DNA of 64,000 nt, from NCBI RefSeq assembly GCF_001592755.1, contig NZ_LUKF01000001.1, positions 410,029-474,028 on the forward strand. The letters run 5' to 3'. The DNA comes from Bdellovibrio bacteriovorus (GTDB lineage: Bacteria; Bdellovibrionota; Bdellovibrionia; Bdellovibrionales; Bdellovibrionaceae). The position numbers and the translations under genes were made by a program. Below are positions 42,416 through 60,786 of the stretch, one piece after another; position 1 is the first letter of the stretch; the number at the start of each line of letters is the position of its first letter. The notes beneath the pieces are model-generated. The model did no database searches. It saw only the letters and a list, made by a program, of their open reading frames with translations, and was not told the origin of the DNA.

Positions 42416-42853
42416 TCACCCCCCTCCTAAAGAGTGAAAAAAATTTTGCAGAAGCGGTCCAAAAAGGAGCATCAAAAATGCGGGAAATTGGAAGATTAAG
42501 AGGGGCACCAGCATTATAAATGGCAATCGCGCAATTTTATTTGTGATTTCTTCGTTACAGGCTTCGATCAGCTCCTCTTCTAAGCGAACAAGGACACCGT
42601 GGATGGCCTCACCGCGCAGTCCGCGCTCTAAAATCTGCAAAAGTGTGCGCCGATGCAGGGAAGAAAGGCCTTGAATGCACTCTTTAGGATCTTGTCCCTG
42701 CTGTAAAAGAGCCAGCCATTGCGTCACGATCAGCGGAAATTCCCCGTCGTGCTTTTTAATATAATGCAAAACACCTTGTTTGACCGATTGTCCCTTTTCG
42801 ATAGCTCGTTTAACGGAACTTAAAAGCTCCAACGGCGGCGCTAAACCTTCCAT
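42416..42853 (-). CDS. TadC-like T2SF-domain protein (short)
   Basis: A 145-residue protein with an amphipathic helical part (about 1-100) and a C-terminal hydrophobic span (LPFIMLVPLLIFQFPAFLML), the pattern of the GspF/TadB/TadC (T2SF) platform domain. I start it at ATG 42853, with AAGGAG seven bases before it, rather than at 42910; it then overlaps the upstream gene by 13 bases. As a Tad component it would be the inner-membrane partner of TadB. No other tad genes are adjacent. Confidence 0.7.
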   Translation of the reverse strand: MEGLAPPLELLSSVKRAIEKGQSVKQGVLHYIKKHDGEFPLIVTQWLALLQQGQDPKECIQGLSSLHRRTLLQILERGLRGEAIHGVLVRLEEELIEACNEEITNKIARLPFIMLVPLLIFQFPAFLMLLFGPLLQNFFHSLGGG

Positions 42854-43578
42854 TTCAATCTCCTTCCCATCGCAAATATCCAAATTAGTCCGCTTAAAAA
42901 GATTAAACACGACATTAAGATAAGTTTTCCGTGCTCTTTGAATCCAAATTGCATGATCACAAAGAAAAGAAGCGCGACATAAAGAGCGGTGACAATTATC
43001 GCCTGCATCTTCAGTTGCTGACTCACCTGTCCAGACCTACGTCGAAAATCTTCGTGCATTTTTAATTCTCGTCGAAGCGCCCTTACTTGATCGATGCAAC
43101 GACTTTGCGAACGATCAATTTCTAAAATCTCATCCCGGAAATCCTGTAGCAGAGCGGATTTCATGGCGATGACATTTTCCGACATCGCCAACGATTGATA
43201 CAGCTCCATCAGTTGATGGCGCATCCAACCTGATTGATTTTCGATGGCTGCATACAACGATGAGCGGAAAGATTTTCCCGTTTGCAGACCCAAAATCACC
43301 GCATCCAACAGTGGAATCAGTGCGCTTCGCATTCGTTTCATCAGGAAAAAACGCAAAATTCGCGGAAAAAACTTTAAAGTTATCAAAAGAATGCCGATGA
43401 AAAGCCACAGTGAAGGTGCGGTTGGCATGTTCGCGGTGAAAAAGCAGATCACAACAAGGTTCAAGATCGAAAGATTTCGAACAAGTCGTTGAGAGAAAGC
43501 GAATTCACGCGCCATCGATGAAAGAATTCGATGAACGAGCACATGTCCGATCAGCGAAATCATAAAAATGATGAGCAA
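42841..43578 (-). CDS. TadB-like inner-membrane protein (T2SF family)
   Basis: 245 residues with an N-terminal membrane segment, a second near 35-75, a central cytoplasmic helical domain (LIPLLDAVILGLQTGKSFRSSLYAA) of the type II secretion F family, and two C-terminal spans (about 190-240). The start is TTG at 43578, supported by GGAGGTG five bases upstream; an ATG 15 bases inside is the alternative. It is the first of a two-gene unit with the TadC-like gene. An orphan pair like this may serve another Tad locus on the chromosome. Confidence 0.72.
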   Translation of the reverse strand: MLIIFMISLIGHVLVHRILSSMAREFAFSQRLVRNLSILNLVVICFFTANMPTAPSLWLFIGILLITLKFFPRILRFFLMKRMRSALIPLLDAVILGLQTGKSFRSSLYAAIENQSGWMRHQLMELYQSLAMSENVIAMKSALLQDFRDEILEIDRSQSRCIDQVRALRRELKMHEDFRRRSGQVSQQLKMQAIIVTALYVALLFFVIMQFGFKEHGKLILMSCLIFLSGLIWIFAMGRRLKWKV

Positions 43579-43725
43579 AGGGCACCTCCACCGGATCTTG
43601 ATGTTCGCAAAAAATATGCAAGGTAAATTTTTTGTTGACGAGGCTGGTCTAATTGTTGAAGACTTAAGTTAAGAAAAGTTTTTATGTTAGAAACAACAAC
43701 AACGTTTGCATCCTAGGAGGAGCAC

Positions 43726-43836
43726 ATGGCAAAGAAAGCAGCAAAAAAAGCTACAAAAAAAGCAGCTAAAAAAACTACTAAGAAAGCCGCTAAGAAAACT
43801 ACAAAGAAAGCTACTAAAAAAGCTTCTAAGAAGTAA
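43726..43836 (+). CDS. Lys/Ala-repeat mini-histone H1-like protein, 36 residues
   Basis: The 36-residue product is MAKK followed by AAKK, ATKK, TTKK and ASKK repeats, with almost nothing but Lys, Ala and Thr. This resembles the DNA-binding tails of histone H1-like bacterial proteins (HctB/AlgP type), but without their other parts. TAGGAGG lies 5 bases before the ATG and a strong terminator follows the stop by about 30 bases, so it is a genuine monocistronic gene. Nucleoid or RNA binding is inferred from composition. It would be missed by most length cutoffs. Confidence 0.82.
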   Translation: MAKKAAKKATKKAAKKTTKKAAKKTTKKATKKASKK

Positions 43837-43867
43837 TTCTTACGGAACTAGTTTAGTTCTTAACGGA

Positions 43868-43896
43868 AACCCCAGAGGAAACTCTGGGGTTTTTTT
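43868..43896 (+). terminator. Intrinsic terminator of the Lys/Ala-repeat gene
   Basis: 10-bp perfect stem AACCCCAGAG/CTCTGGGGTT with a GAAA loop and a run of T residues. Confidence 0.92.
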
Positions 43897-43962
43897 ATGC
43901 CCTGAAACCCGCTCTGGACGCGCATTTCCGGTCGACGGATATTTTCTATAAACTCCGCAAAT

Positions 43963-43997
43963 AAAAAATCCCGAAAGCTTTCACCTTCAGGATTTTT
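43963..43997 (-). terminator. Terminator of the outer-membrane protein gene
   Basis: A stem formed by AAAATCC/GGATTTT with a further partly paired inner segment (one mismatch), flanked by A-run and T-run, so it can act on either strand. It lies 37 bases past the stop of the minus-strand Mla-locus gene. Confidence 0.65.
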
Positions 43998-44033
43998 CTA
44001 AGAAACACATTTTAAATTTTCAAATTTCGCGGA

Positions 44034-44867
44034 CTAGAAATAGTAGATGGCGCCAACTGAACCGTTCGGCAAAATCATTGAACGTTTTACTTCCCACATA
44101 CCGGTCAACTCACCAAAGAAAGACAATCCGGCGAACTCTCCGTTTAACTGATTGTATTGAAGACCTGCTGACGCATTAACAAAATCCGTGCCAAAACGAC
44201 CGGTTTTTTTCTCGCTTTCGGTCAAAACACGGTCCAGGATGTCAGAGTTTTCGTAGTCGCTGGATCTTCCGCGCGAGTTGTACCAGCGCGAATAGCCCAC
44301 TGTTGTGTAAGGCGCCAAGAAATCTCCATCAAAAGCATGTTTCCACGCTACTTGAAAGGTGTTGTAACCAGGTCCTGTGCCAAATCCCGCAACAACTCCA
44401 TCTGCTTCTTCAAAATTAAGTTCCATGTTGAAGCCGGCAACTCCTAATGTGCCGCCGATAGCAACTCCTGCCCCCACTTTTCTTTCCGCACGCATCTTTA
44501 ACGTCGTGTCGTAAGAATAACCGTTTGAGCCTGAGTAATAAGTGTTCGCGGCTCCTGGAATTGAATGGATCACGTCACTTGAAGTGGATCTTTGCGGGAC
44601 TGAGTGCATCGTCGGCGCTGTTGCGACGGGCGCTTCTTCCTCTTCCACATTTCCCTGTTCGATCACCAAAGCCCCTTGTTGCGGGCGTTCTTCGAAGGCA
44701 TTGGATTGATGTTGCATGCGAATGTCGCGCGCATATTCCGCTTCGATAGATTTTGATTTGGATTTAATAGTTGCGGCATCAGAGCCTAGATTCAACGGCG
44801 CCGCATGGGCCTGAACAAAGCTCAAGAAAAGGAGTGCTCCCAAGGAACACACTGAAACTTTTAACAT
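44034..44867 (-). CDS. Predicted outer-membrane/secreted protein at the end of the Mla locus
   Basis: 277 residues with a signal peptide (about 1-23, ending AHA), a variable acidic stretch (about 30-95), and then beta-strand-rich sequence (YSYDTTLKMRAERKVGAGVAI, GVAGFNMELNFEE) ending in aromatic-rich IYYF, which suits an outer-membrane barrel or lipid-associated protein. I do not recognise a family. A perfect AAGGAGGT site is before the ATG. It follows the MCE gene by 21 bases, in the place where an outer-membrane partner of a lipid transport system might sit (inference). Confidence 0.72.
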   Translation of the reverse strand: MLKVSVCSLGALLFLSFVQAHAAPLNLGSDAATIKSKSKSIEAEYARDIRMQHQSNAFEERPQQGALVIEQGNVEEEEAPVATAPTMHSVPQRSTSSDVIHSIPGAANTYYSGSNGYSYDTTLKMRAERKVGAGVAIGGTLGVAGFNMELNFEEADGVVAGFGTGPGYNTFQVAWKHAFDGDFLAPYTTVGYSRWYNSRGRSSDYENSDILDRVLTESEKKTGRFGTDFVNASAGLQYNQLNGEFAGLSFFGELTGMWEVKRSMILPNGSVGAIYYF

Positions 44868-44888: not shown

Positions 44889-45665
44889 CTAAAAAATACG
44901 GGCTCTTACGCCTTCTTCCTGAAAGAACTTTTTAATCGCGGGACCATCTAATGGTTCCAATCTAAAAAGGAGCTTATGAACAAGGTCATAAGTTTCTTCC
45001 GCTTTCTTAGATCTCATATTGTGAGTAAAATATGCCATGTCATCGCTGATTTTGACCGCGTTATCAAGCAATCTTGCCACATCTTGATTCTTGGTGGTTT
45101 TATCCAAAAGAACCAGCGTTTTGTTGAAGTTTGTCGTCAGTCTATCCAACTGCTGAATCATATTGCTGACCGAACCTTCATTTTTTTCTACAAGATCAAT
45201 TAACTTTCCCGCTAAACCATAGCTTTGCGAGATCAACTGATCGATACGCGGAGGATCTTCTCCACGAACATAGTCACCCGAAGAAAATTCAGCCGCTTCA
45301 CCACTTCCCGGAGAGATTTCTAAAAATTTTTCCCCGATCACACCTGCAAGGTTGATGAAAAACTTGGAATCTTTACGGACGCTAGTCCAGGCTTTTTTAT
45401 CCACGGTGATCGTCAAACGCAGTTTCACTTCTTCACCGTTCGCCATTTTATAAGAAGGGTCGAAGTGGATTGATTTTACCTTGCCCACTTTAATACCCAT
45501 CACGCGGACCGGAGATCCTTCTTCGATTCCGCCAGCATAGTTGTACATGACATTGAGTTCTTTAGCGTTTGAGAAAGGAGAAATGAAACCCATAAAGTAA
45601 GCGAACACCACAATGAGCGCTACAGAGACAAGAGCCAGCAAACCTACCTTGGTTTCAACCTTCAT
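44889..45665 (-). CDS. mlaD: MCE-domain protein, MlaD-type
   Basis: The periplasmic lipid-binding component of an Mla-type ABC transport system. An N-terminal membrane anchor (about 7-27) is followed by the MCE domain (about 35-115) with NYAGGIEEGSPVRVMGIKVGKVKSI. The rest (about 130-258) is helical, probably coiled-coil. It is last but one in the minus-strand locus with two permeases and two ATPases. Single-MCE form, 258 residues, slightly longer than E. coli MlaD. Confidence 0.9.
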   Translation of the reverse strand: MKVETKVGLLALVSVALIVVFAYFMGFISPFSNAKELNVMYNYAGGIEEGSPVRVMGIKVGKVKSIHFDPSYKMANGEEVKLRLTITVDKKAWTSVRKDSKFFINLAGVIGEKFLEISPGSGEAAEFSSGDYVRGEDPPRIDQLISQSYGLAGKLIDLVEKNEGSVSNMIQQLDRLTTNFNKTLVLLDKTTKNQDVARLLDNAVKISDDMAYFTHNMRSKKAEETYDLVHKLLFRLEPLDGPAIKKFFQEEGVRARIF

Positions 45666-59677: not shown

Positions 59678-60786
59678 TGAAAAAAACCGGTGAAATTTTA
59701 AAGAAAGCCCGTGAGCAAAAAGGCCTGTCTCTGCATGAAATTGGTCTTTCTTTGAAAATCAACAGCAAGGTTTTAAAAGCCATCGAAGAAGGTGATGATT
59801 CTCAATTGCCTGCGAAAACTTTCTTGCGCGGTTTCGTACAAAGTTACGCAAATTTCCTGCAACTGGATTCAGACAAGGTTTTGGAAGTGTTCTATGAAGA
59901 GATGGGTTCAACAAAACCAAAACCTTATATCCGTGAAGTAGAAACTCCTAAATCTGAAGTTACGGAAACACGTACTAGTTCAAGTGTTACAAGCACTGAG
60001 AAACCAGCAGAGACGGATGCCGAAGCCACGGTCACGCCGATTCGTCGTACCGCGCCTGCTTCGTCTGGAAAATCGGATTTAAAATCCCTTCAAGAAAATA
60101 AGTCCACGAAGACCATCGCTATTATTGGCGTAGGGGTCGTGCTTATCGGTCTTATTCTTTTCACAAAAAAGATGATCGACAAGTATTCAAAAGAAGCTGA
60201 AGTTCCAAGCGGTGAAGTTGCGCAAACAATGGAAGGTGCAACACCGGTAACGGCTGAAACGCCGACAGTGACTGATGTTGATACCAATGGAGATGCAAGT
60301 CCCCTGACGAACTTAACGGCAAGCCCAACTCCAGCAGCGCCATCAAGCCAAGCTTCTCCAACACCAACAGCCTCGCCTCTTGTGTCGACGCCAACTCCAA
60401 CGCCTTCACCAACACCGGTTGCTGCGGCATCACCAACTCCAACAGCGACTCCGAAGGCAAGTCCTACGCCAAGCCCGACGGCTACTCCGGTAGCGACGGC
60501 AAGTCCAACACCAAGTCCTTCGCCGACTCCGTCGCCCACACCGAAAGAGACGAATAAACCCGTCGAACTTATCGTAGAAGCTTTGGATACAGTGGAAATT
60601 GAGTACTCTGCTCCAAACGGCAAGCCGCAAAAGATCCGTCTATCTGCTGAGCAAGTTCATACTTTTAAAAGCAAAAGTGGCCTTCGCATCAGCTTTTCTA
60701 ACGGTGGCGCTGTCAACTTGATCCACAATGGAAGAGAAATCGGCATCCCAGGTGATTTGGGTAAGCCCATTAAGTTGAGCTACTAA
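59677..60786 (+). CDS. RodZ-like HTH membrane protein
   Basis: 369 residues: an HTH of the RodZ/HTH_25 type (about 6-70, [34 protein letters not shown]), a charged linker, one membrane span (about 147-163), a long Ser/Thr/Pro low-complexity stretch (about 205-290, repeated PTPSP units), and a C-terminal DUF4115-like beta domain (about 295-369). RodZ links MreB to the envelope. Shares its HTH type with the protein at 34858. It lies between the TPR lipoprotein and the glycosyltransferase. Confidence 0.88.

Follow-up and report, generated by a model that had tools for sequence, protein, structure and literature searches.

What kind of gene, if any, is formed by the run of Lys, Ala and Thr codons at positions 43726-43836 of the 64,000-nucleotide stretch of Bdellovibrio bacteriovorus DNA analysed here (the window), and what could its product do in the cell? 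Translation of the forward strand gives MAKKAAKKATKKAAKKTTKKAAKKTTKKATKKASKK followed by a stop codon, a protein of 36 residues composed of nine tetrapeptides (MAKK-AAKK-ATKK and so on), each of which ends in a pair of Lys. This product, which we call the KKAT peptide, contains 18 Lys, 10 Ala, 6 Thr, 1 Ser and 1 Met; it has no acidic residue, and its net charge is +18. Its Lys fraction of 0.50 is the highest among the 447 open reading frames of at least 20 residues in the window (counted from the first ATG to the stop), the runner-up reaching 0.41. No tandem array in the window scores higher than this repeat (43730-43832, score 129 in Tandem Repeats Finder, TRF); a 42-bp tandem repeat of about two copies lies at 60452-60531 (TRF score 104). 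The sequence-only reading of this locus had described a free-standing protein made almost only of Lys/Ala/Thr tetrapeptides from start to stop and similar to the tail of histone H1-like proteins, and the translation bears this out, the whole protein being the repeat. The features of the locus are collected in Table 1.

Table 1. Positions of the KKAT gene, its transcription signals and its neighbours in the window
Feature	Position	Strand	Evidence
TadC-like protein, conserved flank	42416..42910	-	T2SSF E 8.6e-5, below Pfam cut-off
TadB-like membrane protein (T2SSF match E 0.09), divergent neighbour, conserved flank	42841..43578	-	Pfam, weak
Upstream block CGCAAAAAATATGCAAG, probable regulator or promoter element	43606..43622	+	22/22 genus genomes having the gene
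TTTTTTGTTGACG, probable upstream promoter part (-35-like TTGACG)	43628..43640	+	TTGAC in 22/22
mRNA leader AACAACAACAACGTTTGCATCCTAGGAGGAGCAC	43692..43725	+	Identical in 21/22 genus genomes
Shine-Dalgarno AGGAGG	43715..43720	+	Sequence; 5 nt ahead of ATG
KKAT microprotein gene, 36 aa	43726..43836	+	ORF, translation, kept in relatives
Small 3'-UTR hairpin GGAACTAGTTTAGTTC	43844..43859	+	Covarying pairs
Intrinsic terminator ACCCCAGAGGAAACTCTGGGGTTTTTTT	43869..43896	+	Folds as 13-bp hairpin; covariation
277-aa protein without Pfam match, convergent neighbour, conserved flank	44034..44867	-	Outer-membrane location inferred
MlaD/MCE-family protein	44889..45665	-	Used for finding the locus in other genera

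By comparing the locus among relatives, the question of whether the frame is a gene can be answered. It is found in the same place in 22 of the 24 genomes of the genus, 20 of them recovered by tblastn and two more (G002 and G011) through the neighbour gene. It was not found in G016 and G018, two draft assemblies broken into about 510 and 550 contigs, respectively; in G018 the neighbour gene lies on a contig of 3,085 bases that is cut at base 1. Peptide length within the genus varies from 28 to 55 residues, and the frame is kept through these changes, with the MAKK start in all 22 genomes and no acidic residue in any of the 43 copies compared. Eight genomes, our own included, encode the identical 36-residue protein in four DNA versions, which differ at five bases, all of them at third codon positions. 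In the five more distant of these eight genomes, the convergent neighbour is 64-68% and the TadB-like protein 66-77% identical to the window's proteins; across the 22 genomes these identities fall to 52% and 50%, respectively, some of the alignments being partial. Since every change is at a third position while the neighbours fall to 64-77% identity, a constraint on the peptide itself is indicated. The earlier reading had relied on a strong ribosome site and a terminator in calling this a real gene, and had named loss of the frame in relatives as evidence to the contrary. Such loss was looked for, and the frame proved to be conserved, in the genus as well as in 30 of 33 other genomes of the family. 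The stretch 43726-43836 is a real, conserved and free-standing gene. In G021, a second KKAT gene of 30 residues with a different leader is located on a separate contig of 209 kb (G021:C2:71484-71573); this is perhaps a plasmid copy, and a search of a plasmid collection with it returned no match.

The same place is kept well beyond the genus. In the family, we followed up 33 of the 42 genomes outside the genus (the nine omitted are all less than 90% complete) by way of MCE loci, a second profile run on 22 genomes and sequence patterns; an MCE match at E<=1e-10 was obtained in 28 of the 33, covering 16 of 17 genera. The related genes encode 23-44 residues, and 27 copies adjoin a homologue of the 277-residue neighbour confirmed by tblastn, while that of G029 adjoins a TadB homologue, so that 28 genomes, spanning 14 of the 17 other genera, carry the gene beside a confirmed neighbour, which is just 24-54% identical. 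The presence beside the same neighbours for which the sequence-only reading had asked is seen in the family as in the genus. The remaining cases are less regular: the copy of G030 has a Tad-like context without tblastn confirmation, that of G027 lies only elsewhere in the genome (L241), in G058 another ORF intervenes and the KKAT gene is farther out, and G035 has an additional copy of 25 residues elsewhere. The gene was not found in G040, G047 and G049 among the 33, and pattern matches in G016 and G049 turned out to be other proteins. In the sister genus g17, empty profile searches at first indicated absence, which we rejected, as a pattern search with translation recovered the gene at the corresponding locus in nine of 11 genomes searched (of 14); profile searches with so low-complexity a protein yield false absences. 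The g17 flanks are homologous, on both sides in two genomes and at the 277-residue neighbour in all nine. The KKAT gene is old within the Bdellovibrionaceae. If G043 is the B. exovorus JSS genome, as we take it to be, g17 includes this species, and the gene is then not tied to growth inside the periplasm. B. exovorus is epibiotic (PMC5941755).

Selection acts on the RNA as well. The leader deviates only in G023, with three changes in AACAACAACAACGTTTGCATCCTAGGAGGAGCAC, and its last 29 bases are unique in our genome even when up to three mismatches are allowed. A leader element, AACAACAACAAC, recurs in some other genera (G034, G025 and g17). In g17, an AAC element is followed by a leader hairpin with a GNRA-type loop (nine sequences), in which 98.8% of the cells are paired, a value reached by 0 of 500 shuffles; its covariation score is 0.660 vs 0.246 (0 of 500 shuffles reach 0.660), and double changes occur in 5 of 9 pairs, a count that 39 of 500 shuffles also reach. 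In Bdellovibrio itself, a leader hairpin masking the ribosome site was considered and set aside as weak, with the Shine-Dalgarno sequence about 0.64 unpaired and z between -0.1 and -1.6 across the genus; the invariance of the leader there rules out a covariation test of this hairpin. Downstream of the frame, the small hairpin and the terminator covary, with 98.8% pairing and double changes in 6 of 15 pairs (0 of 500 shuffles), in a set of 17 loci chosen from 43. The set comprises G034 and 16 of the 22 loci of the genus, after exclusion of near-duplicates, of genera that could not be aligned and of G002 with its differently folding spacer. When each of the 43 loci is folded separately, p for the 3' hairpin is 0.05 or lower in no more than 20, the row of G033 having a misassigned terminator. 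The mRNA of the KKAT gene is under selection besides the protein.

The signals upstream of the leader are less clear. A variable sequence separates CGCAAAAAATATGCAAG and TTGAC from the invariant leader in the genus, and the invariant block with TTGACG (43606-43640) sits in the divergent promoter region common to the Tad-like genes. There is no clear -10 hexamer behind the TTGACG block, and a mechanical scan of 43000-44600 gave no sigma-70-like promoter (mean in shuffles, 2.1); the terminator is likewise missing from the mechanical scan's list, although the hairpin folds. In our genome, CGCAAAAAATATGCAAG has one exact copy and one with two mismatches, and its reversed control matches once, so that no regulon is proposed around it.

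With a conserved leader and 3' hairpins, the whole transcription unit is compact, at about 200 nt, and it could be argued that the main product is a small regulatory RNA enclosing a short frame. We consider this very unlikely, for the five differences among the eight same-protein genomes are all synonymous and the frame survives length changes from 28 to 55 residues in the genus. A scan of 43500-44050 against Rfam at E<=1 found no match at gathering score; the best, PsrR1 over the terminator, was rejected (E 0.0033, 28 bits vs a gathering score of 42). In G001, presumably the genome of strain HD100, the gene encodes a form of 43 residues and lies at 3.67 Mb. None of the eight attack-phase sRNAs given in Table 2 of Karunker 2013 (PMC3627812) lies near this position. 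The near-invariant leader and the covarying hairpin of g17 also fit a second alternative, that the peptide is a polycation associated with RNA or ribosomes, comparable to a hibernation-type factor or to the tail of a ribosomal protein on its own; it would bind rRNA or mRNA and perhaps its own leader for autoregulation. This appears unlikely to us; a structured leader may merely stabilise the mRNA, and the fusions considered below bear on the point from both sides.

Codon usage points to the level of expression. Over the 22 genomes, Ala is encoded by GCT or GCA in 222 of 241 cases (0.54 in the window, 0.70 in a ribosomal-gene stretch of the same genome), Thr by ACT or ACA in 124 of 124 (0.59 and 0.81) and Val by GTA in 23 of 31 (0.11 and 0.23); Lys remains close to background, with AAA in 313 of 417 vs 0.71 in the window. 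The background was taken from 51 long ORFs of the window, and the ribosomal-gene stretch comprises mechanical ORFs of one strand with some other genes included. The Ala, Thr and Val codons of the KKAT gene are thus more extreme than those of the ribosomal-gene stretch. This bias suggests strong expression and an abundant peptide, as either the main reading or an RNA- or ribosome-bound polycation would have it, and avoidance of RNA structure could contribute to it. Such a peptide would be difficult to see by proteomics. Complete trypsin digestion in silico leaves pieces of 3-4 residues, and among 23 copies none yields a piece longer than four; with two missed cleavages the pieces grow to about seven residues, and these are repeated within the protein. 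With tryptic pieces this short, two trypsin-based Bdellovibrio proteomes could easily miss it. The nucleoid proteome in which the histone HBb was found used LysC/trypsin digestion, and section 7 of that paper names HBb and a few others and no KKAT-type protein (PMC10627809). For the life-cycle proteome, trypsin was used and as many as two missed cleavages were allowed; its authors state that small proteins were under-represented (PMC12546842).

What the peptide would bind can be approached from its charge and shape. AlphaFold2 predicts one helix of 34 residues (2-35, pLDDT 91), a weak prediction from single-sequence input. The helical hydrophobic moment is 0.01 over the whole length and 0.48 for the best 18-mer; with so low a whole-helix moment, the peptide is unlike an amphipathic membrane peptide or an antimicrobial one, and no hydrophobic signal-like stretch was found in the 36 residues. 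The family is predatory and the positive charge is strong, as would suit a secreted cationic peptide aimed at the prey envelope or prey DNA. The absent signal stretch and the whole-helix moment, despite the best 18-mer, make this explanation highly improbable, and the free-standing lookalikes described below, in contigs of phyla that are not known as predators, tell against it too. Overall, a chain with 18 positive charges and none negative, and with neither a signal-like stretch nor a lasting amphipathic face, is expected to have a polyanion as its partner.

Based on the results presented above, we propose, at a probability of about one half, that the KKAT gene encodes an abundant, free-standing polycation resembling an H1 tail or a protamine, which would bind nucleic acid, with chromosomal DNA as its most likely target. 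In solution the peptide would be disordered or form a helix only transiently. It would make Lys-phosphate contacts without sequence specificity, and its 18 charges per molecule could neutralise and bridge phosphates, adding condensation beside that due to the histone HBb (Bd0055) and HU. The chromosome is the largest polyanion available and, in the sampled fusions, the one most often served by fused forms of the repeat. Nucleoid compaction by the KKAT peptide is plausible. On the other hand, a large share of the selection falls on the mRNA, for which a function of the protein by itself gives no explanation, and this counts against the proposal, as does the failure of the scan to recognise a promoter.

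It is worth comparing the KKAT peptide with known systems. No match beyond chance was found in Pfam at E<=10 and none in NCBIfam at E<=0.1, and a search of the PDB gave no relative, the one match having E 0.72; paper searches in an open-licence library showed no description of a protein or gene of this type. The chlamydial HctB protein of the HC2 family has repeats that are rich in Lys, Ala and Thr and similar in chemistry to an H1 tail. However, the Pfam model of HC2 (PF07382) is 194 positions long, and four KKAT proteins, the 36-residue form included, gave no match to it at E<=10. Protamines are likewise free-standing, very short, about half basic and free of acidic residues, and the KKAT peptide agrees with them in being short and basic (18 Lys in 36 residues), without Asp or Glu and without any other domain; it differs in having Lys and no Arg and in being bacterial and not germ-line. 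The same MAKKxxKK repeat occurs in bacterial SWIB proteins, topoisomerase I and HU, where it is appended to a folded domain, whereas here it is the whole protein. HBb is a small basic nucleoid protein from the same kind of organism (PMC10627809) and has a histone fold, whereas the KKAT peptide is one 36-residue repeat, for which a single sequence yields one predicted helix of 34 residues and not three. The Pseudomonas proteins AlgP and PhaF carry tandem Lys tetrapeptides of H1-like character, and association of AlgP with both DNA and polyphosphate is reported (PMC9239181); the same paper gives it an N-terminal domain of 124 residues and mostly KPAA repeats, unlike the Pro-free KKAT peptide, which has no other domain. 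Membership in HC2 or in the AlgP/PhaF type therefore fails, and the suggestion that the peptide may work like an H1 tail stands.

The comparison with AlgP raises the further possibility that the KKAT peptide, like an AlgP/PhaF tail standing alone, binds polyphosphate or tethers its granules to the nucleoid. AlgP, with its C-terminal tail of KPAA repeats, binds DNA and associates with such granules, and polycations are reported to form condensates with polyphosphate (PMC9239181). The lack of both proline repeats and an N-terminal domain in the KKAT peptide makes this distinctly unlikely.

A wider sample, from a pattern scan of a species-genome collection that gave at least 117 stretches, bears both on the DNA target and on the argument from predation. 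Among the 118 matches listed, 69 are proteins of no more than 60 residues with at least 95% K, R, A, T, S, V, M, P and G, although some of these sit in frames that stay open further upstream and are perhaps not free-standing. A further 12 are repeat proteins of other kinds with up to 110 residues, another 30 are longer or of mixed type, and the remaining 7 extend past the end of their stretch. By record title, the short matches listed come from Bacteriovoracaceae, Planctomycetes, Acidobacteria, Bacteroidetes, Verrucomicrobia, Alphaproteobacteria and others, and several of these phyla are not known as predators. Sequences as simple as these decide neither for homology nor for convergence across phyla. 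The sequence-only reading had held that nucleoid compaction would be fitting in a predator with a dense attack-phase nucleoid. The H1-like composition is compatible with this, but the link to the attack-phase nucleoid is weakened by the free-standing peptides in several other phyla and by the retention of the gene in g17, which presumably includes the epibiotic B. exovorus.

Longer proteins with the repeat at the N-terminus were also scanned (a sample of 32). Fourteen of them carry SWIB (10), topoisomerase/Toprim (3) or HU (1) domains, four are AhpC/TSA proteins, nine have other matches, two below the Pfam cut-off, and five have none; the other matches include SHMT (1), glyoxalase-like domains (2), RsfS (1) and, below the cut-off, EF-Tu domain 2 (1). 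The SWIB proteins further include two from g17 whose tail is related and contains Pro. DNA and chromatin domains being the commonest partners in these sampled fusions, DNA is favoured as the target, although the evidence is circumstantial and takes in enzymes without DNA roles. The fusions to RsfS and EF-Tu domain 2 in other taxa can be cited for the RNA- or ribosome-associated polycation considered above; they are outnumbered by those to DNA and chromatin domains.

Returning to the proposal of a DNA-binding polycation, we suggest tentatively, as somewhat less than an even chance, that the KKAT peptide belongs to a widespread and undescribed class of bacterial mini-protamines, free-standing Lys/Ala/Thr repeats of 17-60 residues. 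In the Bdellovibrionota, these would form independent, highly expressed units with a conserved leader and terminator, in the same place in most Bdellovibrionaceae genera tested, perhaps as a chromatin component beside HBb and HU; the class would have been overlooked as short, low in complexity and nearly without useful tryptic peptides. If confirmed, this would mean that a stripped-down H1-tail peptide manages nucleic acid in these bacteria and, by the wider sample, in many others, and that trypsin-based nucleoid proteomes hardly see it. In addition, a 36-residue protein of nearly three letters would allow the number of repeats, which naturally ranges from about 7 to 13 units, to be related directly to DNA condensation, with a concrete gene at hand in the genus where the bacterial histone HBb was studied.

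Several further loci were seen in the wider sample. In Bacteriovoracaceae and one Bdellovibrio-titled MAG, free-standing KKAT genes of 30-57 residues lie, by eye, 3' of a clpA-like gene (L081, L097, L111, L123, L090 and others); these clpA-linked genes share a nearly constant leader of their own around TTTCCTGGGAGGAAAT, end in a terminator and form a second syntenic family. Repeats of 17 residues such as MAKKAAKKAAKKAAKKR, perhaps the smallest members, are found mainly in acidobacterial contigs (L127, L135, L138, L147, L150, L071), three of the genes being preceded by a GGGGGGGAT leader. At L153, L151 and L160, a KKTT or KTTAKKK tail precedes a topoisomerase/Toprim protein at its N-terminus, and the tail of L153 matches Pfam HC2 below the cut-off. 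Finally, AhpC/TSA peroxiredoxins with an N-terminal KKAT tail are encoded at L085, L140, L141 and L143; the contigs of three belong to Bdellovibrionaceae or Bacteriovoracaceae, and such a tail could place a peroxidase beside DNA.
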